The position numbers and the translations under genes are program-made. This document shows positions 2,672 to 61,480 of a stretch of 64,000 nt of DNA, piece after piece (positions within the stretch are counted from its first letter, which is position 1; each line of letters starts with the position of its first letter). The notes beneath the pieces were generated by a model that was not told the DNA's origin, ran no database searches, and saw only the letters and a program-made list of their open reading frames with translations. This stretch comes from Rhyzopertha dominica (Eukaryota > Arthropoda > Insecta > Coleoptera > Bostrichidae): contig QCXZ01000045.1 in NCBI GenBank assembly GCA_025024175.1, positions 3,784,649 through 3,848,648 on the forward strand. The letters are read 5' to 3'.

Positions 2672-3633
2672 GGGTCCGCCATCTAAAACTCCCCAGGCTC
2701 CTATTTTCTTTGTTTTTTTAGGTACAACCTTAAGTTATATGTCAAATTGTAGGTCTTTTTGAACTCTTTAAAAATAGCATAGTGACTGTCCAAAATTTTT
2801 TTGAAGATTTTTGAAGATATTTTGTAAATAAAGTTAATTTTTGTAAATATTTTTTAACCTTACCCAGTATAATAAATATTGCTTTATAGTTGGATGCCGA
2901 CTTTTGTCTTCTCCAATTTGTGTTATTACCATGTATTCGTAATTTTTACTCCTTCTTAGTGAAAAACAAGTAAAAACTAATCGCCGCCATGTTCTGTTNT
3001 AGGGCTGTTCACAATTTTTTAAGTTTTATTTTAGTAGCTTATTNTAGTACAAATTATGCCTACATACTCATCGCTGCACACAAAACCCCAAAATTTTGAG
3101 TAACCTTCAACTAAATCAAGTACAAAGTTCGTTCTAAAGAGAGAGAAGCTAGAAAACGAAGGGCTAGTTTGTTTTCTACATCGCGCACTAGCCTCGTCGC
3201 AGGGTTTCGTTTTCTAGCCTCTCTCTCTCTTTAGAACGAACTTTGTACTTGATTTATTTAAAAGTTACTTAAAAATTTTGTGTTTTGTGTGCAGCGATGG
3301 ATAGTAGGCACAATTTGTACCGTAATAAGCTACTAAACTAACACTTAAAAATTCTGAGCAACCCTATTTAAAGAACATGGCGGCGATTAGTTTTTAATTG
3401 TTTTTCACTAAGGAGCAAAAATTACGCATACATGGTAATGACACAAATTGAAGAAGACAAAAGTCGGCATTCAACCATGAAACAATATTTATTATACGGA
3501 GTAAGGTTAAAAACTATTTACAAAAATTAGCTTTAAATACAAAATATGATAATCTGCAAAAAAATTTTTGGATACCGACTAAGCTATCTTAAAAGAGTTT
3601 AAAAAGACCTACAATTTGACATATAACTTGAGG
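2672..3633. repeat. Long foldback (palindromic) element, copy 1
   Basis: The two halves are inverted copies. The left arm (2721-2770, including AAGTTATATGTCAAATTG) pairs with the right arm (3590-3633, CAATTTGACATATAACTT), and the match continues inward to a GA/CT-rich centre near 3130-3245, where GTTCGTTCTAAAGAGAGAGA faces its complement. The left end carries about 50 bp (starting GGGTCCGCC at 2672) that the right end lacks, so the right tip is truncated or the arms are unequal. No open frame resembles a transposase. A second copy lies at 30120-30990. This fits a non-autonomous foldback/MITE family; the superfamily cannot be told because no clean target duplication is visible. Confidence 0.8.
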
Positions 3634-6477
3634 TTCCATACTCTAGAGAGGAAACCTCTACAGCTTTGCCAAATCGCAACTAGTTCAGTTTCTAATACGG
3701 TGAAGAAATTGAGCGATGGAATCAATCATTTTTAATCTGCCAGTGGGGAAAATCGATATAAAACCAAGAACTATTACAAGAGGCCATGCAACAGATCCTT
3801 CTCAGAAGTTCTAGTACCTAAATGTTTTTGACCGCGGGTAGTCATCTGCTCACAATATAACATTGCAACGTGCCTACATAAAAAAATTGCTTTCTTAACT
3901 GGAACGGCAATATGAATGTGCCATTAATTGCTACAAATCTTGTAGTGAAAAGTACATTTACTTATGCGCTAGAAACAGATTGCGTTCTGTCGGTGCACGT
4001 GTGCCCATTTTTCCAAAATTGTTTTCCATCTTGCTTACTGTTCCTCGCGATATGGGTGGTAAATCTGGACATTTCTCTCTGAACAAGTTACTAAAAACAT
4101 AAAAGCATGTTCCGTGGAGATATGTCGTTTGAATATGATGCATTATTATTTTGAGTAGAAATGTCAAAAACAACACAAATTTGACAACGAACTCCACAAA
4201 ACTGCGAGACATATTAACCAAGGGNTTTAGGTATCCCTCCATCGCCAAATAAAAAAAAACGTATTTGATGTAGCTACTGTATTTATTTCAAGGTACACAC
4301 CTGCACTAGACTTGAACTGAACTGCCTTCCTTCACTGCAATATAATTTGGAGACTCGGTTTACACCCCACAACTGAATTAAAGCCATACTATATCCTCAT
4401 TTTGCGAAAGAGGTAATGCAAACCTAATAACGATAATATTTTACGACACCTTCTCATATGCCGTAAAATTTTATTGGTTATAAATTTAACGTTGACACCG
4501 CCATGTGCATTTTCATCTTCAGTAAACGTTAGATTCTTGCGGAGCATTTCAATTTTGCAAAATGATAGGTTATTGCTAAACTAGAAAGAAATATGCGCAC
4601 CTTGTCAAAGTATTAGAACGAATTTATTCCTTTTACTCTTGTGCAAGTGCAAGAGGGCCTTAATGTTTCAGTTGTTTTATACATCATTTATATTCAACTC
4701 GTTAACAGCGAAATAGATGACTAGTTATCATCTGGAACGGCATGAATTAATTTCATTTAGCACAACAGAAAACTTGTTCGGGATAAATAAATGCCACACG
4801 TCACTTTTTTAAAACTCGGTAGCCGGCTATCTGCTGTCATGTTATAAACCGTTGAAACTGCAGCGTTTGGTGCATGTCTCAGATTTTCATATATTACCAT
4901 GCATATATAAAGTTGCATTTGCATGTTTAAAAGCATGCATATGCAGATTCCGTGAAGTGTACCCCGTCATAAAATTCATATTCATTGGTTGCCTTAATCC
5001 AATCGCTTTGAAAGTTCTGGTAGCAAAAAGTTGCTTTGGGAATGCCCACTTCAAATGACGCTCGAAAATGTATTTTATCGTTTAGCAAGTTGTTATTTTA
5101 TATAGAAAGCTTTTAAGCTGTTATGCGTTTAAAGAATATGGTTCGTATTTTCATTACTTGGCGTGGAAATGGAGAGGTACATGATCATATAAGTATACCC
5201 TCATAAAATCTATTAGGACTAAAATGAACAAATATGTAAGATACAATACATTTTTATTTGTTTATTTACTTCTCAAAAGTACTATTTGCGCAACTGAATA
5301 AAATAATGCCAGCAAGAGTAACTTTGGTTGAGAAAAAGACGACAGGACACTTAATGCTTACAGTTTTGTTGTAATTGACTCCACTATTTTTTTTGTTTTC
5401 TCAATGCACATAATCGAAAAACATCTATCGCTTCAATATTCTTTTTTGCAGCTTTGCTATTTAAGTTAATCTATATCGTTACTAAATATACTTACCTTTT
5501 TTAAAGAAGATAAAGAAGTTTTGATTAATAAGATTAAGTTTACTGCATTTATTAATTTTGAGTATAATTAGCAATCATAAATAATATGATCCTACAGATA
5601 TCTCCTGAAATAACTAAAAGGTTCTCAGGATATATCACACGAAAACAACTGGCTTATTCTAATGTTTATTATTATTTCGCCAAGGATTCTAGGTGTACAG
5701 TAACGAATTTTAAACGCAAAACAATTTAAGCGACCAATAATTTGTGTTTACCTTATCTTTCGATAACCCTAATTGGATGCTATTGGGAATATACTTAATA
5801 AGTAGTAAAAACTACTGAAGCTTTACAAAACTATAAAATGAAGCTACATCAATTTCCGCAAGTTTTTTTTTTCTGTCTTAGTGTTCAACAATCTGCCTAT
5901 TATGCAATAAGTATTTGTTATGATCATCAGCTACGTCTAAATCCAGTGATGGATGATTTATATTGACTTTGTATTTAGGTCTGATGACAACACACGTTTT
6001 AGTACACGCACTTCATCTTAATTTGTCTTTAATTGGTTGACCAGCACAGTTGGATGTACATTAGCTTAGTTCAGCGTATTTAGCACTGAATTGTTAAATG
6101 GTTTTCTGTAAGGACTCCCATTGACTTGTCATGTAAAATGACTTCATTGTTTACAGAACCGTGACGATAGCATCTTACATTTTTGTAATTTCCAACGGAT
6201 AACGATTTTCTAATTAGTTGCAGTACCCCAGGGTTGGATGTTGGATAACAATAGATCTATACTGGTCTCAAGTCCAGTAAAACTGTCGAGTAAAAGTTTG
6301 GATCTGCGGTCAGTTAGCCAGTTAGTTGCTTGCTCTTCGTAAATGTATGACATTTCTACGTTAGGGTTCGATCCAGATGTCTAGGAAGTGTTGTTGAAAT
6401 TGGCATTTTTTTCTCACTAGACAATGTGGGAGGAATATCTTTATTTTGACTACAGCAGTCTTATCAAAAGCTTGTGG
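3634..6477. other. No gene recognised
   Basis: AT-rich DNA with frequent stops in all frames. The frames at 3958-4248 (-) and 4852-5058 (+) have no recognisable motif. Nothing else is supported. Confidence 0.45.
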
Positions 6478-7990
6478 TTATATCAAGGAACGCTGCAGTA
6501 CTCCGGCTCTTGCTGATTTGATTATTAGTCGATGAAATTGCTCAATTGTTCCGTGCTTATCAGGAAATCTAAATTGCAGGTCTGAAATTATTTTTTTTAG
6601 ATTATCTTGTTTGACGTCTAGCTTTAGAGAAGCTTTGAAGTGTTGGTAATAAGCATATTGGTTTGTAGGAGATAAGTGTTTTGTGTATAGTATAGCGTTC
6701 AATATGTACGTTATAATTTTGTAGCACTTTCCCAGTGGTGTTCTTGTAAGATTTTGCCAGTAATCAAGTTAAAGCCAGCACACTTTTTGATATGGATATT
6801 TTCGTGGTGACTGCTTTAGTTTATACGATTGTAACCTTTTGAGAAGGTAAATCTAGTTGTAATGGTATGTCTAAAGATCTGGTCATTTCTTCTACCTCAG
6901 ATGTAAAAAGTTTAAACACATTCTTCGATTACAGATCACTTCCTTTAAGATGTGGTACCCTTTAGGCAGCTAGGTCCTGGTTCGCTGCCATTGTTTCCTT
7001 ATGTCTTTTTTCAGCATTTTTTACTTATTGGAAATAGTTTGCTTTTTTCGGGGCTACTTCATATATAAAGGTTACCAAATATGCTGCTTCTGGTATGCGC
7101 TTTCTGAAGTTGTCAGATAAGTTTTTAGTAGTTGATTTAAGGTGGTTAGGTCATTTACGTTTTCCCTGAGCACATCACACTTTTTTATTGTATAAGGAAT
7201 GCTGTTTTGAAATAACAAGGGTGTGTGTTATGTTATCTACATCAGAAGAAACCGAAAACAATTGTTTCTATCTATTAGAACTCTTTAGCCCGGCTATAGT
7301 TCTAATGCAAACAACACAACACAGAAGTCATGTCCCTTAAGTAGGAGGCCAACGACTGTTTGGCTTTCCCATCCTGACAAGGTTGTTTTTCTTTATTTCT
7401 TTGTTACGGATTTGTGAATGTACAGTAATTATTATCACTATATAGCGTGGTCTGAGTATAAACCAAATGCAGAGGTCTCTGAAATCTGTGAATTTATTTC
7501 TGTGAGATGGCCAATATGTTGGTTTGTCAGTGTTCTAGATTATGTGACAGCATTGCTATGATTATAACTCTGGATACTCAAAGAATTTTTTTCTTAACAA
7601 ATGTATGCCAATAGAAAATTCCTTCAAATTGTCCTTTTTTGTTATTATATTCTGGTGGACAATGACGTTAGTAGCCTATAAAGGATTTTTAGCATCTTTA
7701 TTCTTTTGTTTGTGTCAGATAGTTTTCCTTATTGTCTGTATGTTTTGTATAATACGGTTTGTATGTTGGAATTCTTCGTAATTTCTATACGTGAAATGTT
7801 TTTTTCTGAGATCAAACACAATTCCAACCTTTTGTTCCTTAATTAATATTTTGAGTTCTATTGTGTTTTTGGAGCCCACTGGCCAGTGGTGGCTGGTCAG
7901 ATGAGGAAAGTGCCTTACGGTAAGTTTTATGTCACATTTCAATTTAATAACGTCAGAAGAAAAGAACTTATGTTGTAATTGACATAACAC
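6478..7990 (-). mobile_element. Decayed Jockey-type LINE (gag/EN/RT fragments)
   Basis: Fragments read in the expected order on the minus strand, with many stops and frame changes. About 7990-7715 resembles the poorly conserved N-terminal part of a Jockey gag-like ORF1 (GIVFDLRKKHFTYRNYEEFQ). About 7535-7460 gives PTYWPSHRNKFTD, the PTYWPxxxxxxPD-type motif of the LINE endonuclease. Around 6800 GFNLITGKILQE matches the reverse-transcriptase segment usually read as APGYDLITGKILQEL. About 6702-6478 gives LQFRFPDKHGTIEQFHRLI, the QFGFRxxHSTIEQVHRI block. The YADD catalytic block is not present. The copy is clearly dead and internally deleted. The RT assignment is firmer than the gag one. Confidence 0.6.
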
Positions 7991-11057: not shown

Positions 11058-11152
11058 GAATATCTTAATTACAGTGTGGATGACACCATGCCATCTAGTG
11101 GCAATACGGCATCATCCACTCATCTCTTGCGTACACATCGCCTACCTTGGCG

Positions 11153-11160
11153 TATATAAG
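11153..11160 (+). promoter_or_regulatory. TATA-like box inside the ribozyme element
   Basis: TATATAAG lies about 50 bases before the ribozyme core and about 20 before the outer strand of helix I. An internal promoter is expected of a retroelement that must be re-transcribed, but TATA-like strings are frequent in AT-rich DNA, so this is suggestive only. Confidence 0.3.
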
Positions 11161-11170
11161 GGAAGCCAGA

Positions 11171-11274
11171 TCTATGCCATGTTGTCTGCGTTGGGACTAT
11201 AGCTGTGCTGAGGAGGCTTTATAAGCCGAAACAGCTGTTCACAGATTGTATTGACGCAGGCGACATGGCATAGA
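11171..11274 (+). ncRNA. Type I hammerhead ribozyme
   Basis: All universally conserved parts are present in order. Helix I inner 5' strand CTGTG is at 11203-11207; CTGAGGA (the CUGANGA core) at 11208-11214; helix II GGCTT/AAGCC at 11215-11219 and 11223-11227 with a 3-nt loop; GAAA at 11228-11231; a short helix III (A-U and C-G) closed by AGCT at 11233-11236; the cleavage triplet GUU at 11237-11239; then CACAG at 11240-11244, which pairs perfectly with CTGTG to close helix I. Beyond an internal loop, 11171-11192 pairs with 11253-11274 over 22 bp, and the only three departures from Watson-Crick pairing are G-U wobbles. Predicted self-cleavage is after 11239. A very short helix III is typical of Penelope-type hammerheads. 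No core position is mutated, so the RNA is predicted active. The call rests on manual folding. Confidence 0.88.
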
Positions 11275-11298
11275 CGTAATTATTATAGAATATCTTAA

Positions 11299-17147: not shown

Positions 17148-17450
17148 TGCATGTCTATGCTGTACTGTCTGCACCACAAGCAACTGCAGATACATCTATT
17201 TCACTATCATTATAGCTCACCAGTGCAGTGCAGACAGCACGGCATAGAACTGGTTTTGCCTATATACCAAAGCAATGGTATGATGTAAGTAACAATTTAG
17301 ATGGCAATGCCATCTGTCAGCATTACACTGACATGATGACAAAGCCGCCTAGCTGCCATTAGTAGATCCCATAATGACAGCTAGGTGGCTTTGTCATCAA
17401 GTCAGTGTAATACTGATAGATAACATTTCCATCTAAATTGTTACTTATGT
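17148..17450. repeat. Palindromic repeat family B, copy 1
   Basis: Two hairpins lie side by side. The first (17154-17247) pairs CTATGCTGTACTGTCTGCAC with GTGCAGACAGCACGGCATAG. The second (17287-17446) has arms of about 75 bp from AAGTAACAATTTAGATGG to its complement, across a short spacer near 17360-17372. Pieces of the same sequence recur at 52213-52825 and 54930-55041. There is no coding capacity, so this is a non-autonomous mobile repeat. Confidence 0.75.
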
Positions 17451-29100: not shown

Positions 29101-32100
29101 AGACTATGCTCACGTTGTTGATGAGTGTTTGACGATCTTTTTCACTTATTCCTGTAATATTTATTGGTGTTGTAAGATANAAAAANTGTGGGTAGACTGT
29201 ATCTTTGTTTTTTTTTGTGAACACTATCAAATTCTTCTCGAGAAAAATCAAAAAGCTTTCCTATTTAAANCACTATGCTACGATTTCGAATAAAAAAGTT
29301 AACTATTGTAGACTGTTTCTTGAACACAAATCATATTTAACGTCGATGATATTTTAATGGGTTAAGAGGCATAAGGCTGGCAATACTTTTTCATTTCTTC
29401 TTTTGCCTCTTAACCCATTAAAATATCATCAACGTTAATTATAACAAATTTCAGGCAATAATTAACTTTCTCTATACAAATCATATTACCTGAAATATCT
29501 CAGAAGCCAATGACTGTAGGGTAGTGGTACCTTAGTACTTTTTTGTTTAATTCGACGCTCTTCATCGAGTGCGCTATATATATAAAATGTGATCATTCTA
29601 TTTAAAATAAACTTGAAGTCAATTTTTTGACACATGATGTTCAATTGTTTTTTTTTGTAAACGTCATCAAATCCTTGTCGAAAAATCAAGAAACTTTCCC
29701 ATTTAAACCACTATTCTACGATTTCAAATAAAAAAGTTAAGTTATTGTAGAGAGTTAACGTGAACACCCTGTATATGTTGTGCGTGCCGCAGCCGGAATT
29801 CTGTGCAATGCAAAATATCATGACAGTATACCTACCTTTTAGAAAATAAGGTCTGAATAAACAGTTTTATTTCCACTTGTTTTTATTTTTTCCCGCGTCT
29901 AGAAGCAATATTCGAAGTTCAAGTCAATATGGAATCAATTTCACTTCTAATTAGTTACAACTAGTAACAACGAAATTGCTGCAGACAATACTAGTTTTGA
30001 TTAGTAAAAACCAGTACTTACTGAAGCACTTCGTTGAAATTGGTTTTGACTGCCACATATACCTACATACACGCATTCTTTTTTACCCAAGTACCTATTT
30101 CTACTGAGGCCTTATATACGGGTCCGCCACCTAAAACTCCCCAGGCTCGTATTTTCTTTGTTTTTTTAGGTACAGCCTTAAGTTATATGTCAAATTGCAC
30201 GTCTTTGTGAAGTGAGTGTCCTATTTTTTTTGCAGATTGTGATATTTTGCAAATAAAGTTAATTTTTGTAAATATTTTTTAACCTAACCCTTATAATAAA
30301 TATTGCTTCATAGTTGGATGCCGAGTTTTTTCTTCTTCAATTTGTGTCATTACCATGTATGCGTAATTTTTACTCCTTCTTAATGAAAAACAAGAAAAAC
30401 ATGTTCTGTTATAGGGTTGTTCACAATTTTTTAAGTGTTAATTTAGTAGCTTATTATGGTTCAAATTATGCCTACATACCCATCGCTGCACACAAAACCC
30501 CAAAATTTTGAGTAACTTTTAAATAAATCAGGTACAAAGTCGTTCTAAAGAAAGAGAGAGAGAGAAAGGCTAGAAAACGAAACCCAGCGATGAGGCTAGT
30601 TTGGATTTCTACATCGCACACTAGCCTCGTCGCAGGGTTTCGTTTTCTAGCCTCTCTCTCTGCTTAGAACGAACTTTGTACTTGATTTATTTAAAAGTTA
30701 CATAAAATGTTGAGGTTTTGTGTGCAGCGATGGGTATGTAGGCACAATTTGTACTGTAATAAGCTACTAAACTAACACTTAAAAATTCCTTGTTTTTCAC
30801 TAAGTAGGAGTATAAATTACGCATGCATGGTAATGACACAAATTGAAGAAGACAAAAGTCGGCATTCAACTATGAAGCAATATTTATTTTACGGAGTACA
30901 AAAATTAACTTTAAATACAAAATATGATATTCTGCAATTTTTTTTTAGGAAATACACTAAGCTATCTTCAAAGAGTTTAAAAAGACCCTGAATTTGAATT
31001 TCATCAGATATGGTACCAACATTAAAAATTTAGAATATGTATGCTTAAAACTGTAGCTTTTAAATTCCGAAATGCAATAATTACAGATTGAATACTACTC
31101 CTTACGTGTACAGATCTTGCGACAATAAATACCTGTAAATATTACTAAGATGTTGCGTATCAGACTTTTTTTTAATAGTATTGTTAGTCCTGGTTATGTG
31201 ATACATCTCCAGGATCAGCCTTTTGTTAGTAATTAGCTCTACTTCTAAAATTTTGACATCCCAGTCTATTGAGTGATTGTTATTAAGTACATGAGTGGCT
31301 AGTGCACACCTTTCTCTTTTTTTATTTATGTCACTTTTATGTAGTGATAATCTATTTTTAATCCACTGGGATGTTTGCCCCATATAAATGTTATCGTAAG
31401 TATTGCATTTTAAACTGTATACTACGTTAGATTTATATTGAATTAGAGTTTCTGCCTTTAATTTCGTAAACAAATTTGAGACTTTTTTTATATTACGTAT
31501 AGCAATTTTGACATTTTCTGAATTATAGGTTCTAATTAATTTCATCACACCCTTCCTTTTTAAATAAAAATTTAACAACATTCAAACAGTTATTAATTCA
31601 AAATTCACATCCCCCTTATAAACGAAATACTATTCTCTACTAGTAACCTCCCTCTTGGGGGTATAACGCATATTGACCCTAAAGTTGTCGGAATTGAGGT
31701 AAGATCTATGGGCTCTCGAGACAGGATATATGAAGATAATTCGGTGACAGATGTGATGGATAATAATCAAACTACACATAATTCATTAGATTTGCCAAGA
31801 TATGGATCACTACCCAACATCACAGGCTTAACTCCGAAATTAATTAGAACCTTTAATTCAGAAAGTATCAAAATTGCTATACGTAATATAAAAAAAGTCT
31901 CAAATTTGTTTACGAAATTATAGGCAAAAACTCCAATTAAATATAAATCTAACGTAGTATACAGCGTAAAATGCAGTACTTGCGATAACATTTATGTAGG
32001 GCAAACATCCCAGTGGATTAAAAATAGATTATCACCACATAAAAGTGACATAAATAAAAAAAGAGACAGGTGTGCACTAGTCACTCATGTACTTAATAAC

Positions 32101-34104
32101 AATCACTCAATAGACTGGTATGATGTAAAAATTTTAGAAGTAGAGCTAAATACTAACAAAAGGCTGATCCTGGAGATGTATCACATAACCAGGACTAACA
32201 ATACTATTAATAAAAAGCCTGATACGCAACAACCTAGTAATATTTACACGTATTTATTGTCGCAAGGTCTGTATACGTAAGGAGTAGTATTCAATATGTA
32301 ATTATTGCATTTCGGAATTTAAAAGCTACAGTTTTAAGTATACATATTCTAAATTTTTAATGTTGGTACCATATTTGATGAAATTTGTTACAGCTTTGAC
32401 ATATGTAAAATATTTTTTGACTGAAGGATTTTCAAAGTATTTTATAATTTCGTTGAATTTAAACTGTTCATGAGGAAGACAACATTAATATTTTGGAAAA
32501 TATCTTCATATTATGTGTTAACACTATATACAATTAATCTCAAATTTTTGTAAGTAGAATTTAAAACTTTTATTTTTTTTAATGTTATAGTTATGTTATT
32601 GTAGACGCTCTGAAGGAGACTGAATAGAAGTCGAAAGCTTAGCTCCAGCTTAGACCCAGGTCGACATACCCTTAATTATTTCAATTCTCTACGTTAGTAA
32701 TCGACCGTTACTTTCCCTCGTGTTTATTCTAAAATTTAAATATAAACTTGCTATCACCTTACCTAAATTCAGTTCTGTAACATCGCCTTCTATGGGTGTA
32801 ATTTTATTTAGGGCCTCTGGGTTATCCTCTCTCAATTTCTCAAATAGCTGAAATTTACACACGTAGAAGATATAATGTAATACAGGACAATAATAACAAA
32901 TCGCAATATTACATTTGACGTATTTTATTAAATGGCTCATCTGATATATTGTGCTAATATAAAGATATCAAATAAAATAGACAGTATCTAGTACTTGAAA
33001 GGTGTTGATGTTATGTTGTGAATTACTTTTTTGCACTTGTATCCATATCAATATTTTTTTTTGTAAATTAGACAGTTAACAATTAATTTGGATAGAATTA
33101 GATTTTTAAACATTTAAAAAAGGTTAACTGTTTGATACTAAAAGCGACAGATTCAGGCATTTCTTCAATCACAGAGCTTTGAAATTGATACATAACATTA
33201 GCTAGCCGTACTTTGATATCTCACATTAGGTCGCTTTATTTGCTACTTAGCCGATTTAAAAAATATAAATAAATAAAAATATCTCATTAATCTGTATATC
33301 TTGCCTTGGCGGGAATTGGTTCCAATAATATTAACGACGGCAGTTGTTATAATTCCTACTCATATATTTTGTGGATAACGTTATAGAGACTCGTCTAACT
33401 CCGGCCTACCTGGAAATCGTTTTCGGTTGGCGTTATTCGTATTGCAAAGTCTACATACTTCTCTGTAAACATGTGATACAAACGTATATTTTATTTGTTT
33501 TTTCATTTTAGGGGTTTTGACGTTTCATTAATTTGTGTACAAGTTTGTGTAGACTATTACTTCAGCAACATTTTTATTTATATTATGTCTTGATAAAATT
33601 TAGGTGTTGAATTTGATATGTAATCTAAATCCTACAAACTAAATTGAATTTGATTAATTTAAGCCAACCCAAGTCAAAAGTTAGGAGAGACGAATAAATT
33701 GTATCAAGTTTCTGTTGAACACGTATTGTTTTATTAGAAGCTATATTTTTAGTGCTATCGTGTTTAGGCTTATATAATGGTTATGTTGTCGACTGACAAG
33801 TCTAAGAAGCAAAAACTCGTCATTATTGTTTGTATTTTTATACCAAGAAAATCAAATCGACTACGTTCGTAGTGCAAGTAACAGGATTTTCTATTTTCCT
33901 TACCTTGAGTTCCTTCATTTTCTTTAATCTCTCTTCCACAGTTTTTCCTTTTTTTGCTCTCAAAAGTACATATACCCTACCTACATCCGGACATGACCTA
34001 AGCAGTTTTTCCACAAAAGGTTTTCCCACTACGCCACTGGTTCCAGTTACGAAAATATCGCGTCCAGCAAAAAACTCCGGAACACCAGCTGCTTTGTCGG
34101 CCAT
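20026..34104 (-). CDS. Fatty acyl-CoA reductase (FAR), eight exons
   Basis: Encodes a fatty acyl-CoA reductase, which reduces long-chain acyl-CoA to fatty alcohol with NADPH; in insects FARs supply wax, cuticular hydrocarbon and pheromone precursors at ER or peroxisomal membranes. Coding exons: 34104-33904, 32847-32763, 29151-28729, 26919-26836, 24925-24817, 24742-24493, 20645-20382 and 20155-20026, about 514 residues, the usual FAR length. The Rossmann motif TGTSGVVG is at residues 20-27 and the catalytic YVITK (YxxxK) at about 208-212. The FAR_C-type domain begins in exon 6, and exon 8 carries a hydrophobic segment as in other insect FARs. The start is ATG-GCC at 34104, just before the conserved VPEFFAGRDIFVTG. 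Introns hold many transposon remnants. Oddity: exon 6 ends in phase 0, but the best exon 7 acceptor needs phase 2. Membership in the FAR family is certain; the exact substrate cannot be told. Confidence 0.93.
20382..20645 (-). CDS. FAR exon 7
   Basis: Encodes RLYKVQRRVHVAMMMALTHF, IFNEWTFVHDKF and DFDMERYAQTAYTTRVYIM, matching FAR_C-domain sequence, and ends with the donor GTAAAT in phase 2. The strongest acceptor (T-rich tract ending TTAG) puts the first base at 20645 but needs exon 6 to end in phase 2, whereas it ends in phase 0. In-frame phase-0 acceptors exist upstream (AACTGAAG near 20684, ATGAAG near 20672) but lack a pyrimidine tract and would add 9-13 atypical residues. The start is therefore uncertain. 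Confidence 0.85.
21986..22350. repeat. Degenerate tandem repeat, ~106-108-bp unit
   Basis: Units begin with AATTTTCCAGAA-like sequence at 21986, 22092, 22200 and 22261. Each full unit then has CTTCTCGAAA, a T-rich stretch, CGAAACGGTTTCGCCAA-like sequence and ACATTTGAGGAATTCTCTG-like sequence. Two full units are followed by a truncated one (61 bp) and another nearly full one. It lies in FAR intron 6. Open frames over it (21953-22189 +) are a by-product of the repeat. Confidence 0.7.
23230..23900 (+). pseudogene. Mariner transposase relic
   Basis: Broken plus-strand frames give the mariner transposase order: a degenerate ARWIPHNL block, IVTGDECWICCYDPEKKQQS-like sequence (first catalytic Asp intact), then RPKRRIILHHEICRAYTA where HHDNA should stand (second Asp changed), and SPDLAPTGFFFWPKMKDKLR where LAPxDFFLFP is normal (third Asp changed to Gly). 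Several frameshifts and stops occur. It lies in FAR intron 6, same strand as the window. The sub-family differs from the mariner at 43 kb (HHDNA/SPDLAPCDFF type). It cannot encode an active enzyme. Confidence 0.85.
24493..24742 (-). CDS. FAR exon 6 (start of C-terminal domain)
   Basis: 250 bp. Acceptor TTTTCTTCAG, donor GTATGA; starts phase 2, ends phase 0. Encodes DVAIYNCCGGKTYSISPAD, then YPTAIITNCKYEHYLIAMLF and QVLPSLILDGLLVLAKHKPL, the typical FAR run HxxPAxxxDxxLxLxGxKP. Separated from exon 5 by only 74 bp. Confidence 0.9.
24817..24925 (-). CDS. FAR exon 5
   Basis: 109 bp. Acceptor TTTTGTAG, donor GTAAAA; starts phase 1, ends phase 2. Encodes GVIRSVYSDPDIIPDYIPVD and ICAKALLVSAW, the conserved D-x-I-P-V-D segment that ends the reductase domain. 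It is below the usual open-frame size cut-off but unmistakable. Confidence 0.9.
25914..26258. mobile_element. Non-autonomous DNA element with 8-bp target duplication (family TACAGTCACT)
   Basis: Terminal inverted repeats begin TACAGTCACTAAAT at 25922 and end ATTTAGTGACTGTA at 26250; the similarity runs inward about 70 bp through ACCGCAATAG and a GGCGGGA-type block. Flanks are GTTCAAAA (25914-25921) and GTTCAAAC (26251-26258), a 7/8 match consistent with an 8-bp duplication as in hAT or P superfamilies. 329 bp, no transposase. It sits in FAR intron 4. Two relatives abut at 43.0-44.6 kb. Confidence 0.75.
26836..26919 (-). CDS. FAR exon 4
   Basis: 84 bp. Acceptor is a long T-tract ending TTTAG; donor GTAAGT; phases 1 and 1. 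Encodes VEEPFPGWFDSLNGPAGLIF, matching the FAR block EPxPGWxDNxNGPxG, and ends in VGLG. Confidence 0.92.
27727..27915. repeat. Palindromic MITE
   Basis: Inverted arms of about 80 bp: TATACTAAAC at 27727 mirrors GTTTAGTATA ending at 27915, with AAAGTGCAGACTAGCTAACA facing TGTTAGTCTGCACTTT, and a short AT-rich loop near 27815. Lies in FAR intron 3. Transcribed on either strand it would give a long hairpin. Confidence 0.7.
28014..28041 (-). repeat. Degenerate hammerhead-like motif
   Basis: On the minus strand, TTGACAAAGATTACA, a short loop, TGTAATC and GAAAC. Helix II (GATTACA/TGTAATC) and GAAA are right, but the CUGANGA box reads UUGACAA, so two core positions are lost. Likely a relic of a Penelope-like 3' region. 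Predicted inactive. Confidence 0.4.
28729..29151 (-). CDS. FAR exon 3 (catalytic)
   Basis: 423 bp. Acceptor ATATTACAG, donor GTAGGT; phases 1 and 1. Encodes ISEKDRQTLINNVSIVYHVA, then NVRGTREAASLALQM, FVHVSTTYSNC and finally NTYVITKQMAEHVV, which holds the catalytic Tyr and Lys. All FAR landmarks of this region are in the expected order without stops. The plus-strand frame 28608-29006 over it is a shadow. Confidence 0.94.
29210..29765. repeat. Direct repeat pair in FAR intron 2
   Basis: About 110 bp at 29210-29320 (TTCTCGAGAAAAATCAAAAA, then CTACGATTTCGAATAAAAAA) recurs at 29650-29765 (CTTGTCGAAAAATCAAGAAA, then CTACGATTTCAAATAAAAAA). The second copy runs on to GTGAACACCCTGTATA, whose complement TATACAGGGTGTTCAC is a common terminal type of insect Tc1/mariner-like elements. 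The copies are the same way round, about 440 bp apart. Confidence 0.65.
29337..29438. repeat. Hairpin with 35-bp arms
   Basis: 29337-29371 is the inverted copy of 29404-29438 with one mismatch (centre TTTTAATGGGTTAAGAGGCA), separated by 32 bp. ACAAATCATATT occurs on both sides (near 29326 and near 29475), so the hairpin may be part of a short insertion with a 12-bp duplication. Confidence 0.65.
30120..30990. repeat. Long foldback element, copy 2
   Basis: Starts GGGTCCGCCACCTAAAACTC like copy 1 at 2672 and follows the same order, including the GA/CT-rich inverted centre (30545-30680). Small internal deletions distinguish it. The right arm stops near 30990, where Penelope-like sequence begins, so that later insertion or a rearrangement removed the tip. 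Lies in FAR intron 2. The two small frames within it (30314-30511 + and 30687-30869 -) are mirror images of each other across the foldback and are not genes. Confidence 0.8.
30997..31581 (-). pseudogene. Penelope-like element 3' end with GIY-YIG domain, left copy
   Basis: A 159-residue frame (31581-31102) ends in a GIY-YIG-type endonuclease domain: NVVYSLKCNTYDNIYMGQTS supplies the Y...IYxGQT core, WIKNRLSLHKSDI the Arg-bearing helix, then CALATHVLNNNHSIDW and LILEMYHI with the Glu. This is the C-terminal endonuclease of Penelope-like retroelements. The reverse transcriptase that should precede it is absent. The homologous sequence with the right copy runs from 31545 to 30997. Penelope elements often insert as inverted or partial units. 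Located in FAR intron 2 on the gene's own strand. Confidence 0.85.
31838..32387 (+). pseudogene. Penelope-like element 3' end with GIY-YIG domain, right copy
   Basis: Inverted counterpart of the left copy. The frame has a stop at 31921 (TAG in place of a sense codon after LFTKL) and then reads NVVYSVKCSTCDNIYVGQTS, WIKNRLSPHKSDI, THVLNNNHSIDW and LILEMYHI to a stop at 32278-32280. It retains the Cys pair CSTC, where the left copy has CNTY. One extra codon (WYDV for WDV) is present. About 290 bp between the two copies (31546-31837) is not shared. The endonuclease fold is otherwise intact but cannot be expressed as one frame. Confidence 0.8.
32610..32636 (+). repeat. Degenerate hammerhead-like motif downstream of the Penelope-like copy
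   Basis: CTGAAGGA, helix II GACT/AGTC around GAATAGA, then GAAA. The first box deviates from CUGANGA by one extra base. About 330 bp after the stop of the right Penelope-like copy and on the same strand, where these elements are known to carry hammerheads. Predicted inactive. Confidence 0.45.
32763..32847 (-). CDS. FAR exon 2
   Basis: 85 bp. Acceptor AAATTTCAG, donor GTAAGG; starts phase 0, ends phase 1. Encodes LFEKLREDNPEALNKITPIE then GDVTELNL, the conserved GDV-x-x-x-x-LGL block of FARs. Confidence 0.92.
33904..34104 (-). CDS. FAR exon 1 (start, NADPH-binding motif)
   Basis: 67 codons from ATG to the donor GTAAGG at 33903, phase 0. Carries FFAGRDIFVTGTSGVVGKPF with the TGxxGxxG dinucleotide-binding loop, then RVYVLLRAKKGKTVEERLKK, the second strand typical of NAD_binding_4 FARs. 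An upstream in-frame non-ATG stretch is not conserved in the family, so the ATG at 34104 is preferred. Confidence 0.92.
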
Positions 34105-43141: not shown

Positions 43142-44480
43142 CGAGGCATGTTTTTTAAGTAAGTACCGTTTTGCGATTCCGCCGCCGCAGCGCTACGGTC
43201 GGCGTTCCGCGCATGCGCGCTGCTTACCTACATCTCTTGCCTACGCACTGACGCCATTACAGTTTGATTCTTCATTGTATACGTTGTTTACTAAATGTTT
43301 AAGATGCCTCCGACAATCGTGAATCCCGCCGATTGTGAAGTACGGGCTGTTATACGATTTCTTAGTGCTAAAGGCGTAAAACCGATCGATATTCATCGTG
43401 AGATCTGTGAAGTTTACGGACAAAACATTATGAGTGATGGAATGGTCAGGAAATGGGTGAGAGCATTTAAAGATGGCCGCACAAATGTGCATGATGAAGA
43501 ACGGTGTGGGCGTCCTTCGGTCGTTAATGAAGATTTGGTGCAGAAAGTGAACGAAAAGGTGAGAGAAAACACGAAAACAGACGCTTTACAATTTCATCAT
43601 TGTGCGACTGCTTTCCTCAATATTCTCGTAGTGTTTTTGTATCGCATTGTGACCGAGAACTTGAATTACCGGAAATTGTGTTCACGTTGGGTTCCGAAAA
43701 TGTTGACGGATTTGCACAAAACCCAACGTTTAGGCAGTGCATTGACTTTCCTTGAGCGGTACCACAATGAAGGTGAAGATTTTTTAGACCAAATTGTTAC
43801 TGGTGACGAAACATGGGTGGCCTACGTCACACCAGAATCGAAACAACAATCCATGGAATGGCGACATTCATCATCACTTAAAAAATTGAAGTTTAAGCAA
43901 ACAATTTCTGCCCGGAAAATCATGAGCACAGTTTTTTGGGACAGGAAAGGAGTATTGCTAGTGGAGTTTCTGCCTCGTAATGAGACAATCAATGCAGCGT
44001 CTTATTGTAAGACATTGAACAATCTGCGTCGTGCAATCCAGAACAAAAGACGTGGCAAGTTGAGTAAGGGTATCGTTTTGCTGCATGACAATGCCCGTCC
44101 ACATGTGTCTAATCGGACCAAAGATCTCATCAAATCTTTTAAATGGGAAACTCTAGATCGTCCTCCATACAGCCCTGATCTGGCGCCCAGCGACTACCAT
44201 TTGTTCCTGCACTTGAAGAAACACCTGGGTGGTCAGCGTCTTCAAGACGATAACGAAGTCGAAACATTTGTGATACAGTGGTTAACAAGTCAGGCGGCAG
44301 AATTTTATGAGGAGGGTATTTAAAAACTGCTGCCACGTTATGACAAGTGCCTCAATATTCACGGAAATTATGTAGAAAAGTAGATTAAGGTACAGGCTTT
44401 CATGTAAGATAAAATTATTGCGATATCTTTGCACGTCTTTTTTAATTCCAAAACGGTACTTACTTAAAAAACATGTCTCG
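43142..44480 (+). mobile_element. Mariner-family transposon, nearly full length
   Basis: 1339 bp with terminal inverted repeats of about 32 bp: CGAGGCATGTTTTTTAAGTA at 43142 and its complement ending at 44480 (one mismatch, CGAGGC against CGAGAC). Both ends are flanked by TA (43140-43141 and 44481-44482), the mariner target duplication. It inserted into the older TACAGTCACT element and is therefore the younger of the two. It encodes the damaged transposase at 43295-44323. Confidence 0.93.
43295..44323 (+). pseudogene. Mariner transposase, damaged
   Basis: Cut-and-paste DD34D transposase of the mariner family, acting in the nucleus. The N-terminal helix-turn-helix region (AVIRFLSAKGVKPIDIHREI, then MVRKWVRAFKDGRTNVHDEE) and the linker GRPSVV are clear. 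All three catalytic Asp are kept: D171 in TGDETWV, D265 in HDNARPH and D300 in APSDYHLF, with exactly 34 residues between the last two; WVPKML is also present. Damage: between about residues 94 and 113 the frame is shifted and then restored (the expected RRFTISSL reads in another frame), and a TAA at 44321 replaces a codon before KLLPRYDKCLNIHGNYVEK, removing the last 20 or so residues. Probably inactive although the ends look mobilisable. Confidence 0.93.
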
Positions 44481-45296
44481 TATTTAGTGACTGTAGATCA
44501 TGGTACAGTCACTAAATACATTACAGTACCGCAATAGTACGACATTTTAGGGCAAAATAGCGGCGGGAAATTTAAATTAACAATATCATAATTGTGTAAA
44601 CTAAAAGAATAACCCAAGATAATTCGATCTTGCTAACTAGTGGGGTATGTTTTTTTTTCTCTGAGAAAAGCAATCTTCTTACTGCAAGTTAGAATAATAT
44701 CAACTAAATATAAATTTTATTATTATTTGAAAAAGTTTATTACGAGTAGTTGGACGATATGCTGTGATTTCTTTTGTGGTAGGAGTAAACAACGCTGAAA
44801 TGAAAAATTGAAGATCTGCGACCCATGCAATGAACGAATGTTTTCTCTCTACAAGCTCCCTGTTTCGCGTCGCTTTTGGGAAGGGCGATGATTCATTTCC
44901 TACGTGAGGTAACGTTGTAAACTTTCATGCTGTCAAGGGCATTTTGTTTGTATGAGGCGTTGTATGCTTAGATGACAATTCGAAAGAATAGACATTAAAT
45001 CTTTATAGAATTGCAAAATATACTATATTTTAGGCATTCACAGGGTGGGCTGTAAATTTTGAGCGTTGGCTTGTAACAAATGTAATTCAGCAGGATGAAT
45101 AAAAAAGGAAATCTTTTCGTCGATTAGGCAGATATTTAGAAACAGTTCTGAATGCACACGATCTCTGCCAAAGGCAATACGAGTACTATTTTATTAGTTT
45201 CACACGTTTGCCTACGTGAATGTGCACTGCATATTATATTAAAAATTGAAAACTGATCCATCTTCTCTAAGTGGAGTTATTAATTAATTCTTCAAA

Positions 45297-45977
45297 AAAA
45301 ATATTCTTAAAGTGAACTTCCACTTTATTTTTCAATTGTAAAGCGCTTTCGGCTACATGTTAGCCATCGTCAGTATAAAAATTAAAAGGAAACTAATAGT
45401 TTGACAAAGTCAAAAATCAGAAACAAGCAAACTTGACTACAAACTGAAATGCAACCTACATGCCAGTAACTCAAACGAAACATTAATTTAGATCAAACAA
45501 AGAATTTAGAATAGGACAATTGAAATTACAAAAATCATTTAGAATAGTAAAATTTTGTTCGTTAATAATTTTATAAATCTCTAAAATTTCCAAATAATTT
45601 AATTTAGATGATTTACTATACAAATGTAATGAATTTAGATTGTCATTACATTTGTGTAGTAAATCATCTAAATTAAATTATTTGGAAATTTTAGAGATTT
45701 ATAAAATTATTAACGAACAAAATTTTACTATTCTAAATGATTTTTGTAATTTCAATTGTCCTATTCTAAATTCCTTGTTTGATCTAAATTAATGTTTCGT
45801 TTGAGTTACTGGCATGTGGGTTGCATTTCAGTTTGTAGTCAAGTTTGCTTGTTTCTGATTTTTGACTTTGTCAAACTGTTAGTTTCCTTTTAATTTTTGC
45901 ACTGACGATGGCTAACATGTAGCCGAAAGCGCTTTACAATTGAAAAATAAAGCGGAAGTTCACTTTAAGAATATTTT
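45297..45977. mobile_element. ~680-bp near-perfect palindrome of two Penelope-like 3' tails
   Basis: AAAATATTCTTAAAGTGAAC at 45297 mirrors GTTCACTTTAAGAATATTTT ending at 45977; the arms are about 330 bp each with few differences and meet near 45636. On each arm, reading outward from the centre, is a short C-terminal coding tail (right arm 45640-45792: HLCSKSSKLNYLEILEIYKI and onward, ending FDLN-stop) like the end of Penelope-type ORFs, followed by a 3' region with a hammerhead-like core at 45902-45928 (CTGACGA, GGCT/AGCC, GAAA) and its mirror at 45373-45347. The right-arm core has one extra base before helix II and no proper cleavage site was found. The coding tail differs from that at 31-32 kb, so this is a different Penelope-like family. 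Confidence 0.75.
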
Positions 45978-46129
45978 CTTTTGAAGCATATTATATTATT
46001 TTCTCACTGTCTCAATTCCTAAAATATTGTGTATTATGCACTTAATGAATTAATTTGCATTTATTGTCATTTATTAACATGTTCTTTAACCCTGAAAACC
46101 ACTTTATCTGTATATTTATCTATCACCTT

Positions 46130-52212: not shown

Positions 52213-52825
52213 CCTAAAATGCTGTGCTGTCTGCAACCATCTGCATATAGATCTATTTCGCTATCATTATAGCTCATTATAGCAGTTTGGGTTTAGTGCA
52301 GACAGCACGGCAAGTTGACGTATGCAGGTGCTTGCCAACTTGCCAGGCTATTTCCTTTAGGAAGTAGTACCAGTTTAGGCAGCTAGGTGGCTTTGTCATC
52401 ATGTCAGTGTTAAAGCCACTATATCTCACAAAGTACCACAATTGTCAGCCATTTTGTTTCCAACTAGTGGTGAGAATCGTTGGAAGTGAGCAAATGAACT
52501 AAAGAAGTGTACTGTAGCTAGTATTCTATACTATTATAGTTCGCTGGCGGTTGTTCATTTCGAATGTCGCATCTGTTTCAGTCAGTATCATACAAGTCCC
52601 TTGCATAGTTTAAAATGAACTAGATCATTTTATTCTGACGAACTAGATTGTTTAGTGATTACTAGCTATAATAAACTACGTTCGTTTGTTTGCTTAAATT
52701 CCACCATTGCCACTTCTAGTTGGAAACAAAATGGCGGGCAATTGTGGCACTCTGTCAGATATAGTGGCTTTAGTCAGTGTAATGCTGACAGATGTCTAAA
52801 TCTAAATTTCTACTTATATTTTGCT
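52213..52825. repeat. Palindromic repeat family B, copy 2 (interrupted)
   Basis: Begins with the family's first hairpin (CTGTGCTGTCTGCA at 52219, mirrored by TGCAGACAGCACGGCA ending near 52312), continues with CTTTAGGAAGTAGT and GGCAGCTAGGTGGCTTTGTC, is broken by the 52411-52772 element, and resumes GTCAGTGTAATGCTGACAGA to about 52825. Same family as 17148-17450. Confidence 0.75.
52403..52780. mobile_element. Foldback element with perfect 8-bp target duplication, nested in family B
   Basis: 362 bp (52411-52772) with 15-bp perfect terminal inverted repeats, TAAAGCCACTATATC and its complement, extending imperfectly to about 60 bp (CCATTTTGTTTCCAACTAG facing CTAGTTGGAAACAAAATGG). Flanked by GTCAGTGT at 52403-52410 and 52773-52780, a perfect 8-bp duplication. 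Removing one copy and the insert restores the family B sequence seen at 17.4 kb. The 8-bp duplication and TAAAG terminus suit a hAT MITE; the tip resembles that of the TACAGTCACTAAAT family. Confidence 0.85.
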
Positions 52826-54914: not shown

Positions 54915-55056
54915 ATCTTTAAATTAGTAAGAACTTGGGATGGCAATGCCATCTGTCAGCATTACACTGACATGATGACAAAGCCACCTAGCTGCCTTAA
55001 CGGGAACTACTTCCTAAAGGACAGCATAGACATGCATTTTAATCTTTAAATTAGTA
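54915..55056. repeat. Palindromic repeat family B, copy 3, with 15-bp target duplications
   Basis: A 112-bp unit (54930-55041) in the opposite orientation to copies 1 and 2 (GATGGCAATGCCATCTGTCA, then GACAAAGCCACCTAGCTGCC, AACTACTTCCTAAAGG, and finally ACAGCATAGACATGCATTTT). It lies between two perfect 15-bp repeats ATCTTTAAATTAGTA at 54915-54929 and 55042-55056. A duplication this long is unusual for a cut-and-paste MITE and points to target-primed insertion or another mechanism. Confidence 0.75.
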
Positions 55057-59739: not shown

Positions 59740-61480
59740 ACAAATCTCCTTATTAGTATATTAAACCAGAATGTGCAAGGCATAAATAATAAAGCAAGAT
59801 ATCTAATGTCCTGTTTTCACAGCGGCAGCATCAGCAAGACGCAGTCTGTTTGTCGAAATATTGGCACTTTGCTAATAATATTTAGCTGCGACAACTGGAA
59901 TACTCTTGCTGTCATGTACCCACGAAGCTCGCACAGAAATGGCATGGCTATATTTGTAAAAAAACAGCATTTGTTTAGAGAATATACTGAACTTAAAAAC
60001 TGTCTGTTGATATGGATATTGAGGTCGTGGGTGTTGAGCTGACAAACAAAAACTGCTTGTGTTGGCATATACAGACCACCGACTGCACATTTCGAAATGT
60101 TTCTAGGCCAATTAGAGAATATTCTAAATAAAATGCAGGCGATTGTATTAATTTTAACATAAATTTCTTACAAAATAAACGCAAAACAGAAGTCATTAAC
60201 TTGTTCGAGACAGGTCGGAGAAACTTTGGCTCATCTAATCTCTGTGGTAATAGATAAATGCTTGGATCGGGAAATGTTTCCTGCATTAATGAAAGTACCG
60301 CGCTTAGTTCCCATACATAAAAAGGACAACCTGATGGTTGCGCAAGCTACATACCTATTTCTCTCCTTCCCAGATATTTGAACACATCATCAATAGAACA
60401 ATTATTATTCCATAAAAAAGTGTATATTGACAAATATACAGCACAATTATAGAAAGCAGCGGTCTGTGACAAGTTCAATTCAGGAAACGTTAACAATAGT
60501 TGATGCAGTCGATAATAATGAAGAAGCATTTAAGTAAAGCCTTTGAGAGAGTGTTGTTAGAAAAGTAAATTTTTGTGCCATACGAGGAAAAGTTCACGAC
60601 TTTATGCAATCATATTTAGACAATAGAAGGCAAGTCGTGGAATGGAAAGGTAGTCAATCCAATCCTACAAGTATAATCCACTGAGTCCCACAAGGTTCAA
60701 TTCTGGGACCCACACTCTTCATTATTTACATGAATCATCTACCTGCGCTCGTGGAGACGACAATACGTGGGTTTCGCTGCATGGCGATGACAATGCGCAC
60801 TATCAATGAAAAAGCTCAATTTCCGATCGCGGAAGCGAAGCAATGGCTTTGTTGCAATGATCTAGAGCCCAACGAAGAGAAAATACAGACTTACATAGCT
60901 TTTCAAATATTAAAAATCAAAATGCTGCTAGACATGGCCTTAATGTGGAAACCGCACATCACTGATTTTGTACAAAAGACGAAGTAGAGCTATTTACACA
61001 ATTACAAAAAATAGCACATCTACCACATTCGAGGCAGCTAATATGTGTTACTATGCAAACTATAACATTACAACTTACGGCACCATGTTTTAGAGAACAG
61101 CTGCAGCTCAAAACGGTTTTTTGCTGCTGAAAAGGGCGTTGTGGGGTTTGAAACAGCGAGATAGTTGCAGGTCTCATTTTGTCTGAGGGAATACTCACCT
61201 TTCCTTGTGTACATCTTAACATGTGTAGAGTATTTGCATAGTAGAATGCGCGATTTCACAAGAAACTGAATTTCATGAATACGGTACAAGAAGATCTGAG
61301 GATAAATATGTGGACTATTGGGACTTTAAATTGTTCATTTCTCTTGGCTAAAGAACGGCAAGTGTTTGGTGGTACCGTTAAAAAAACAGTAAAAAAGAAA
61401 CTAATTAAAAGAGCGTATTATAGCATACAAGATTTCTTGGACGATAATGTATACTATAAGTGATAATAATAGATGTAATG
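59740..61480 (+). mobile_element. Decayed CR1/Jockey-type LINE
   Basis: In order on the plus strand, with several stops and frameshifts: QNVQGINNKARYL (start of the apurinic endonuclease domain, near 59768), MAIFVKK and GIYRPPTAHFEMFLGQLENI (the YRPP endonuclease block, near 60070), then RT pieces LVPIHKKDN, QRSVTSSIQETL (in place of RSxxTxLxExxx), VPQGSILGPTLFIIYMNHLP (near 60690) and a C-terminal tail ending YSIQDFLDDN at about 61460. The Gly before VPQGS is now a stop, and the YADD motif is lost. A CR1/Jockey-clade element is indicated by the YRPP and PQGSILGPTLF forms. It cannot transpose. Confidence 0.8.

Follow-up and report, generated by a model that had tools for sequence, protein, structure and literature searches.

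We think it likely that positions 11171-11274 of the window, by which we mean the whole 64-kb stretch of DNA analysed here, hold a complete type I hammerhead core in a 219-bp element that was probably placed by target-primed reverse transcription, and whose RNA is predicted to be cut, chiefly as a dimer, after U11239. This hammerhead, which we call copy A, is one of four related hammerhead-bearing copies in the window (A, E, B and C).

A complete type I core inside a long stem

The complete type I core of copy A lies at 11203-11244 on the + strand, inside a 22-bp outer stem, and has the following parts.

11171..11192, + strand: outer extension of helix I, 5' arm; 22 of 22 positions pair with 11253-11274
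11203..11207, + strand: inner helix I, 5' arm CTGTG; 5 bp with CACAG
11208..11214, + strand: core CTGAGGA, from sequence and descriptor
11215..11227, + strand: helix II, GGCTT-TAT-AAGCC; 5 bp, GGCTT/AAGCC
11228..11231, + strand: core GAAA, from sequence
11230..11239, + strand: helix III with its loop, the 10-nt palindrome AACAGCTGTT; predicted cleavage after 11239
11240..11244, + strand: inner helix I, 3' arm CACAG; pairs with CTGTG
11253..11274, + strand: outer extension of helix I, 3' arm; partner of 11171-11192

The type I motif CUGANGA ... GAAA ... NUH is present, with three helices round the core and helix I open. Helix III amounts to one C-G pair adjoining the core A-U, and the cleavage triplet is GUU, ending at 11239, which puts the site between GUU and the following C. 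A preliminary description of this DNA had named the same core parts (CTGAGGA, GAAA and GUU), the 5-bp helix II, the 5-bp inner helix I CTGTG/CACAG and the fully paired outer stem in which 3 of the 22 pairs are G-U, and each was found where it had been placed. Chance origin had also been called negligible. A strict descriptor of the full intact core matched once in the window and never in 40 Markov-randomised windows with the same dinucleotide statistics. The simpler pattern CTGANGA-N13-GAAAC occurred once against 0.02 expected, and at least once in 2 of 100 shuffles. A relaxed descriptor gave a second match at 61124, with one core change and a 28-nt helix III containing 3 bp, which may be a chance match. 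The 104-nt hairpin of copy A as a whole folds at -53.9 kcal/mol (z -7.3), and none of 200 shuffles was equally stable. These results support the broader claim that the genome of an arthropod, probably an insect, carries a type I hammerhead whose core is complete.

The Rfam covariance-model search that had been proposed as a check came out negative, with no match anywhere in the window at gathering score and all four copies below the curated threshold. Since that threshold was not reached, we do not assign copy A to an Rfam family. The best match at copy A was to the type III model RF00008, with 26.6 bits where the gathering score is 48.5 (E 0.002 over 601 bases, 0.21 over 64 kb), and with the flanks paired differently. 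We rejected this type III reading on the grounds that G would have to stand at the cleavage position, which leaves no legal triplet, and that helix I is absent. On its sequence, copy A is a real hammerhead that is well supported as an RNA structure, and for which activity is predicted.

Four related copies share the core and covary in the stems

The other three hammerhead-bearing copies are all on the opposite strand.

7222..7325, - strand: copy E, the same hairpin; core CTAAAGA (1 change), helix III palindrome of 12
17154..17248, - strand: copy B; core CTGGTGA (1 change), helix III TA-GATG-TA, TATATA box upstream
52216..52316, - strand: copy C; core ATAATGA (2 changes), helix III palindrome of 10

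Copy B was found by a one-mismatch descriptor, copy C by a repeat common to it and B, and copy E by blastn with A. Because B and C were aligned by hand with the structure in view, we treat A and E as the unbiased comparison. These two align without gaps over 104 nt, with 66 of 104 positions identical (63%). When the hammerhead structure was laid on this alignment, 65 of 68 cells paired, and 8 pairs had changed on both sides; when the partners were slid by 1-3 columns as a control, only 29-48% of cells paired, with 0-3 double changes. The covariation is present in helices I and II. Across all four copies, the structure's pairs are formed in 34/34 cases in A, 31/34 in E, 31/32 in B and 29/34 in C by the hand alignment, 15 of the 34 pairs show a double change somewhere, and the helix III pair is C-G in A and E and U-A in B and C. 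A further relative, copy D, carries no ribozyme and was excluded from the pair counts, and the shuffle controls ignore the relatedness of the copies. An internal loop that might serve as the contact for loop II expected of a type I hammerhead is present in helix I, where ACTATAG is common to A and E and the 5' side is absent in B.

A covariance model built from A and E only (R1) ranked copy B next after its two parents (48.5 bits, E 1e-10), followed by copy C (42 bits, E 7e-9). The opposite strand of copy A scored 38.5 bits, near the 42 bits of C, so the R1 score reflects the stem in large part. R1 gave 39 matches in total, namely A, E, B, C and 35 others; the latter include the four copies' opposite strands and many palindromes, and were excluded from the copy count. 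Viral contigs, a collection ill-suited to insect repeats and one that may omit records from the window's own genome, were probed with patterns derived from A, from the upstream region of B, C and D, and from A/E, and none of the three patterns had a match.

These properties bear on the reading that the copies are fold-back (MITE-like) DNA repeats, with arms that resemble helix I and a hammerhead core that arose by chance. The window is rich in fold-back repeats, ten or so of which match R1 on both strands, and pair counts alone are unspecific: 30/34 pairs are also formed by a long palindrome at 45586, which belongs to the 339-bp inverted repeat at 45.3-46.0 kb. We nevertheless find this reading very improbable. 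The core, GAAA and the cleavage triplet occupy equivalent positions in all four copies despite their divergence, with 0, 1, 1 and 2 core changes in A, E, B and C, GAAA whole in all four, and a permitted triplet in each (GUU, GUU, AUC and AUA, respectively). Between A and E, these parts are also less diverged than the whole (1/11 positions against 38/104, P ~0.04). We call the copies hammerheads because the core, GAAA and the triplet reappear within the stem, and not on the strength of the pair counts. The direct repeats of unequal length described below (11 bp in A and 15 bp in D) likewise speak against a MITE-like origin, as the duplications made by DNA transposons are of fixed length.

Several fold-back structures in the window were recorded in their own right. 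The inverted repeat at 45294-45981 has 339-bp arms that are 98% complementary with a 10-bp spacer, and this near-perfect palindrome is probably young. Two copies of a ~0.9-kb fold-back element, at 2672-3635 and 30120-30997, are 84-98% alike piecewise and contain internal inverted repeats.

The preliminary description had argued from wobble-only divergence of the outer stem that its pairing was maintained. The conclusion stands, and the argument is weak by itself: three changes would all preserve wobble pairing by chance about 4% of the time (an estimate in which transitions are given twice the frequency of transversions), and among these wobbles pair 22 is a T-G common to A, E and C. Maintained pairing is supported far more strongly by the covariation among four copies than by the wobbles. 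Selection acted on the mobile family, and not demonstrably on the locus of copy A.

The copies belong to a short, probably retrotransposed element

Flanking repeats mark the ends of the element in copy A and in copy D.

11058..11068, strand not assigned: left target-site duplication GAATATCTTAA, perfect 11 bp
11069..11287, + strand: copy A, inserted element of 219 bp between perfect 11-bp direct repeats
11153..11158, + strand: TATATA, a putative TATA box that starts 18 bp before the outer stem
11288..11298, strand not assigned: right target-site duplication GAATATCTTAA, perfect 11 bp
54930..55041, + strand: copy D, a 112-bp relative that has neither ribozyme nor TATA-like box; its 3' end is that of B
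54915-54929 and 55042-55056: perfect 15-bp direct repeats in the flanks of copy D

A direct repeat as good as that of copy A arose in 20 of 5000 randomly drawn pairs of segments with the same spacing. The insertions A and D stop 13 and 11 bases, respectively, past the same stem, and no direct repeats were found in the tried flanks of B, C and E. Copy A has a G+C content of 46.6% compared with 34.4% for the window, and aligns with B over 113 columns at 66%. TATATA is at the same position in A and B, degenerate in E and absent in C. Given the related copies and the direct repeats that flank A and D, we regard the element of copy A as short and probably retrotransposed. Unequal, AT-rich duplications of this kind fit target-primed insertion. 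Copy A is most simply explained as an old insertion whose core is still complete. A tandem satellite at the 11-kb locus was ruled out, as there is no array there but a single unit between the duplications.

Near copy B, a fold-back at 17286-17447 (upstream) has 76-bp inverted arms 10 bp apart. Because parts of it are found again in copy D and at 52.3-52.8 kb, we link the ribozyme family to this fold-back module.

We asked whether the ribozyme at the 11-kb locus could instead have been kept by selection for a host role, such as the processing of a host transcript. Among the four copies seen in the window, A alone has a complete core, as such a role would have it. On the other hand, copy A belongs to a dispersed repeat and has a duplication at its flanks, frames in 9.0-13.5 kb are at most 118 codons long, and the five frames tested round copy A reach no Pfam cut-off (one matches RapA_C far below the cut-off and four have no match). 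Purifying selection cannot be read from a single locus in a single genome, and we give a host role almost no credence. Elsewhere, the window contains an open 342-codon frame for a Mos1-like mariner transposase at 43295-44323 (PF01359, PF17906), and a fatty acyl-CoA reductase fragment whose best named matches are from the insects Pararge aegeria and Anopheles coluzzii at ~50% identity, with six closer ones at 55-66%. An insect host is thus likely.

A different origin is suggested by a pair of fragments in the middle of the window.

31111-31545, - strand, and 31612-32271, + strand: GIY-YIG endonuclease fragments, head-to-head; inverted-repeat arms of 264 and 287 bp

We take these fragments, at 31.1-32.3 kb, to be Penelope-type. 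The copies could then be solo pseudo-LTRs, that is, 5'-truncated ends of a Penelope-like element with the hammerhead between promoter and reading frame, and the ribozyme would belong to an autonomous element. Penelope-like elements do carry hammerheads, have a likely promoter in the pseudo-LTR and insert at AT-rich sites (PMC11167929); here, a TATA-like box lies upstream of the ribozyme in A and B, and the GIY-YIG fragments are within the window. However, tblastn of six GIY-YIG homologues matched only 31.1-32.3 kb, which adjoins none of the five copies; none of the 39 R1 matches lies beside the fragments, from 30.7 to 41 kb; and long fold-back repeats are found upstream of B and C. On these results, in which GIY-YIG was the frame looked for, we consider the pseudo-LTR origin rather unlikely, and prefer a short non-autonomous element, for which Penelope elements are a plausible source of the enzyme. 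As a separate observation, the stretch at 32605-32660, after a GIY-YIG frame, contains CTGAAGGAGACT...AAGTCGAAAGC, similar to the core and helix II of a hammerhead apart from one extra base; no helix I was seen there by eye.

Calculated folds favor the hammerhead in two molecules rather than one

The folding check proposed in the preliminary description did not return the hammerhead as the minimum-energy fold of a single copy A hairpin. The hammerhead fold of the monomer has an energy of -47.8 kcal/mol compared with -53.9 kcal/mol for the best fold, and is thus 6.1 kcal/mol worse. In the best folds of E, B and C, the outer stem forms, and the interior is not a hammerhead.

The palindrome formed by helix III and its loop is 10 nt long in A and in C, 12 nt in E and 2 nt in B, so that three of the four copies have a palindromic helix III and B does not. 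The centre of helix III changes from AGCT in A to AATT in E, which is a paired change only between two molecules. A strand-swapped dimer of A that we specified by hand has an energy of -111.5 kcal/mol, compared with -107.8 kcal/mol for two best-folded monomers, and the unconstrained fold of two copies of A is itself a strand-swapped hammerhead at -113.3 kcal/mol; these energies ignore tertiary contacts and RNA concentration. In the free dimer fold, the core strands are open, helix II is intramolecular and a 10-bp helix III is intermolecular. The cleavage-site U is paired in this fold, and the catalytic core would have to undo that pairing. Because the best fold of the monomer is not a hammerhead and that of two molecules is a strand-swapped one, dimeric cleavage is predicted; the activity of copy A, if any, is probably dimeric as judged from these models.

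The word "intact" in the preliminary description consequently holds for the core, which is complete, and is not supported when taken to mean active, in view of the minimal helix III, the U at the cleavage site and the better competing fold. Hammerheads with U at this position are cleaved more slowly than those with C. A further point against "intact" in the sense of active is that repeat-type hammerheads of Aedes and Nematostella that conform to the core showed no cleavage as tested in vitro, in the portion of the report available (PMC3088659).

Proposed mechanism

We propose the following scheme for the transcription, dimerisation, cleavage and mobilisation of the element. RNA would be started at the element's own TATA-like box or by read-through, and the 22-bp outer stem would form; a start ~30 bp past TATATA would lie within the outer stem's 5' arm, with inner helix I still included. 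The palindromic helix III (AACAGCUGUU) would then bring together two ribozymes, in tandem or on two RNAs, which would exchange their helix I strands. Each ribozyme would cut between GUU and C, leaving 2',3'-cyclic phosphate and 5'-OH ends, and the 22-bp stem could hold the cleaved pieces together. Finally, a reverse transcriptase supplied from another locus, with Penelope-like elements as the leading candidate source, may insert a copy of the processed RNA at AT-rich sites.

More speculatively, the copies might represent an insect lineage of promoter-bearing, single-unit, SINE-like hammerhead elements in which a long, covarying helix I keeps the halves annealed after cleavage, giving a nicked rod. 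We hold this to be doubtful. If true, the product would be a nicked rod ready for tRNA ligase or reverse transcriptase, as opposed to the circles that come from tandem arrays.

Comparison with known hammerheads

Hammerheads in animal repeats are well known, insects included (PMC7229834, PMC7761336 and PMC3088659, each as far as the text available goes), so the general surprise is modest. Among the papers listed by literature searches that did without the species name, none dealt with the copy A element judging by title or abstract, which is a weak negative. What the window adds is a genomic hammerhead family with strong comparative support inside only 64 kb, in which the Rfam curated thresholds miss the complete-core copy and the other three alike.

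Animal non-LTR retrozymes (Cervera and de la Pena 2020) are, like copy A, short repeats with a type I hammerhead; according to the sections available, their RNAs are 170-400 nt with G+C below 50% and duplications of more than 4 bp, and they occur in insects as well (PMC7229834). The unit of copy A is in keeping with this, at 219 bp and 46.6% G+C, with an 11-bp duplication and a type I hammerhead, and by analogy it may work like a retrozyme. Retrozymes, though, are tandem arrays that are said to be without promoters (PMC7761336), whereas copy A stands alone as one dispersed unit and has a TATA-like box. Penelope elements have been argued to be a plausible source of the enzyme, as far as that text goes (PMC7229834). 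The copies resemble minimal Penelope-like hammerheads in their weak or missing helix III, as these are described in the available text (PMC7761336), and Penelope-like elements in the likely upstream promoter and the AT-rich insertion (PMC11167929). They differ in that no GIY-YIG frame lies beside any copy. Helix I is also shorter in the minimal Penelope-like hammerheads than in the window copies. Since copy A has neither the tandem arrangement of the retrozymes nor an adjoining GIY-YIG endonuclease frame as in Penelope elements, we assign it to neither group.

Satellite hammerheads of the newt and of Dolichopoda cave crickets have, in the portions of the papers available, an extended stem I and a dimeric (double) hammerhead, and the Dolichopoda form shows compensatory changes in stems I and II, much as our copies do (PMC2837043, PMC6155905). 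Those hammerheads differ from ours in being located in satellite repeats; the extended form in Dolichopoda adds 19 bp of sequence, and the dimer's stem III there forms within one strand, on the same partial text (PMC2837043, PMC6155905).

There is also a close likeness to the palindromic repeat-type hammerheads that Perreault et al. (2011, PMC3088659) described in Aedes aegypti. In the part of that paper available, these too are hammerheads in interspersed repeats of an insect, with a palindromic helix III and loop such that a dimer gains a 10-bp stem; compared by description, the 22-bp outer stem, the TATA-like box and the duplications are noted only in our copies (PMC3088659). Newt RNAs have been described as cleaving in dimeric form (PMC6155905, PMC7229834), and the same has been suggested for Aedes (PMC3088659). 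The palindromic helix III that marks this dimeric repeat type in newt and Aedes is found in A, E and C, and copy A conforms to this type as well as to the type I motif. The family thus offers a clean test of whether insect hammerheads with a palindromic helix III act only as dimers, and of whether a ribozyme is used in the life cycle of a non-tandem element with its own promoter-like box.
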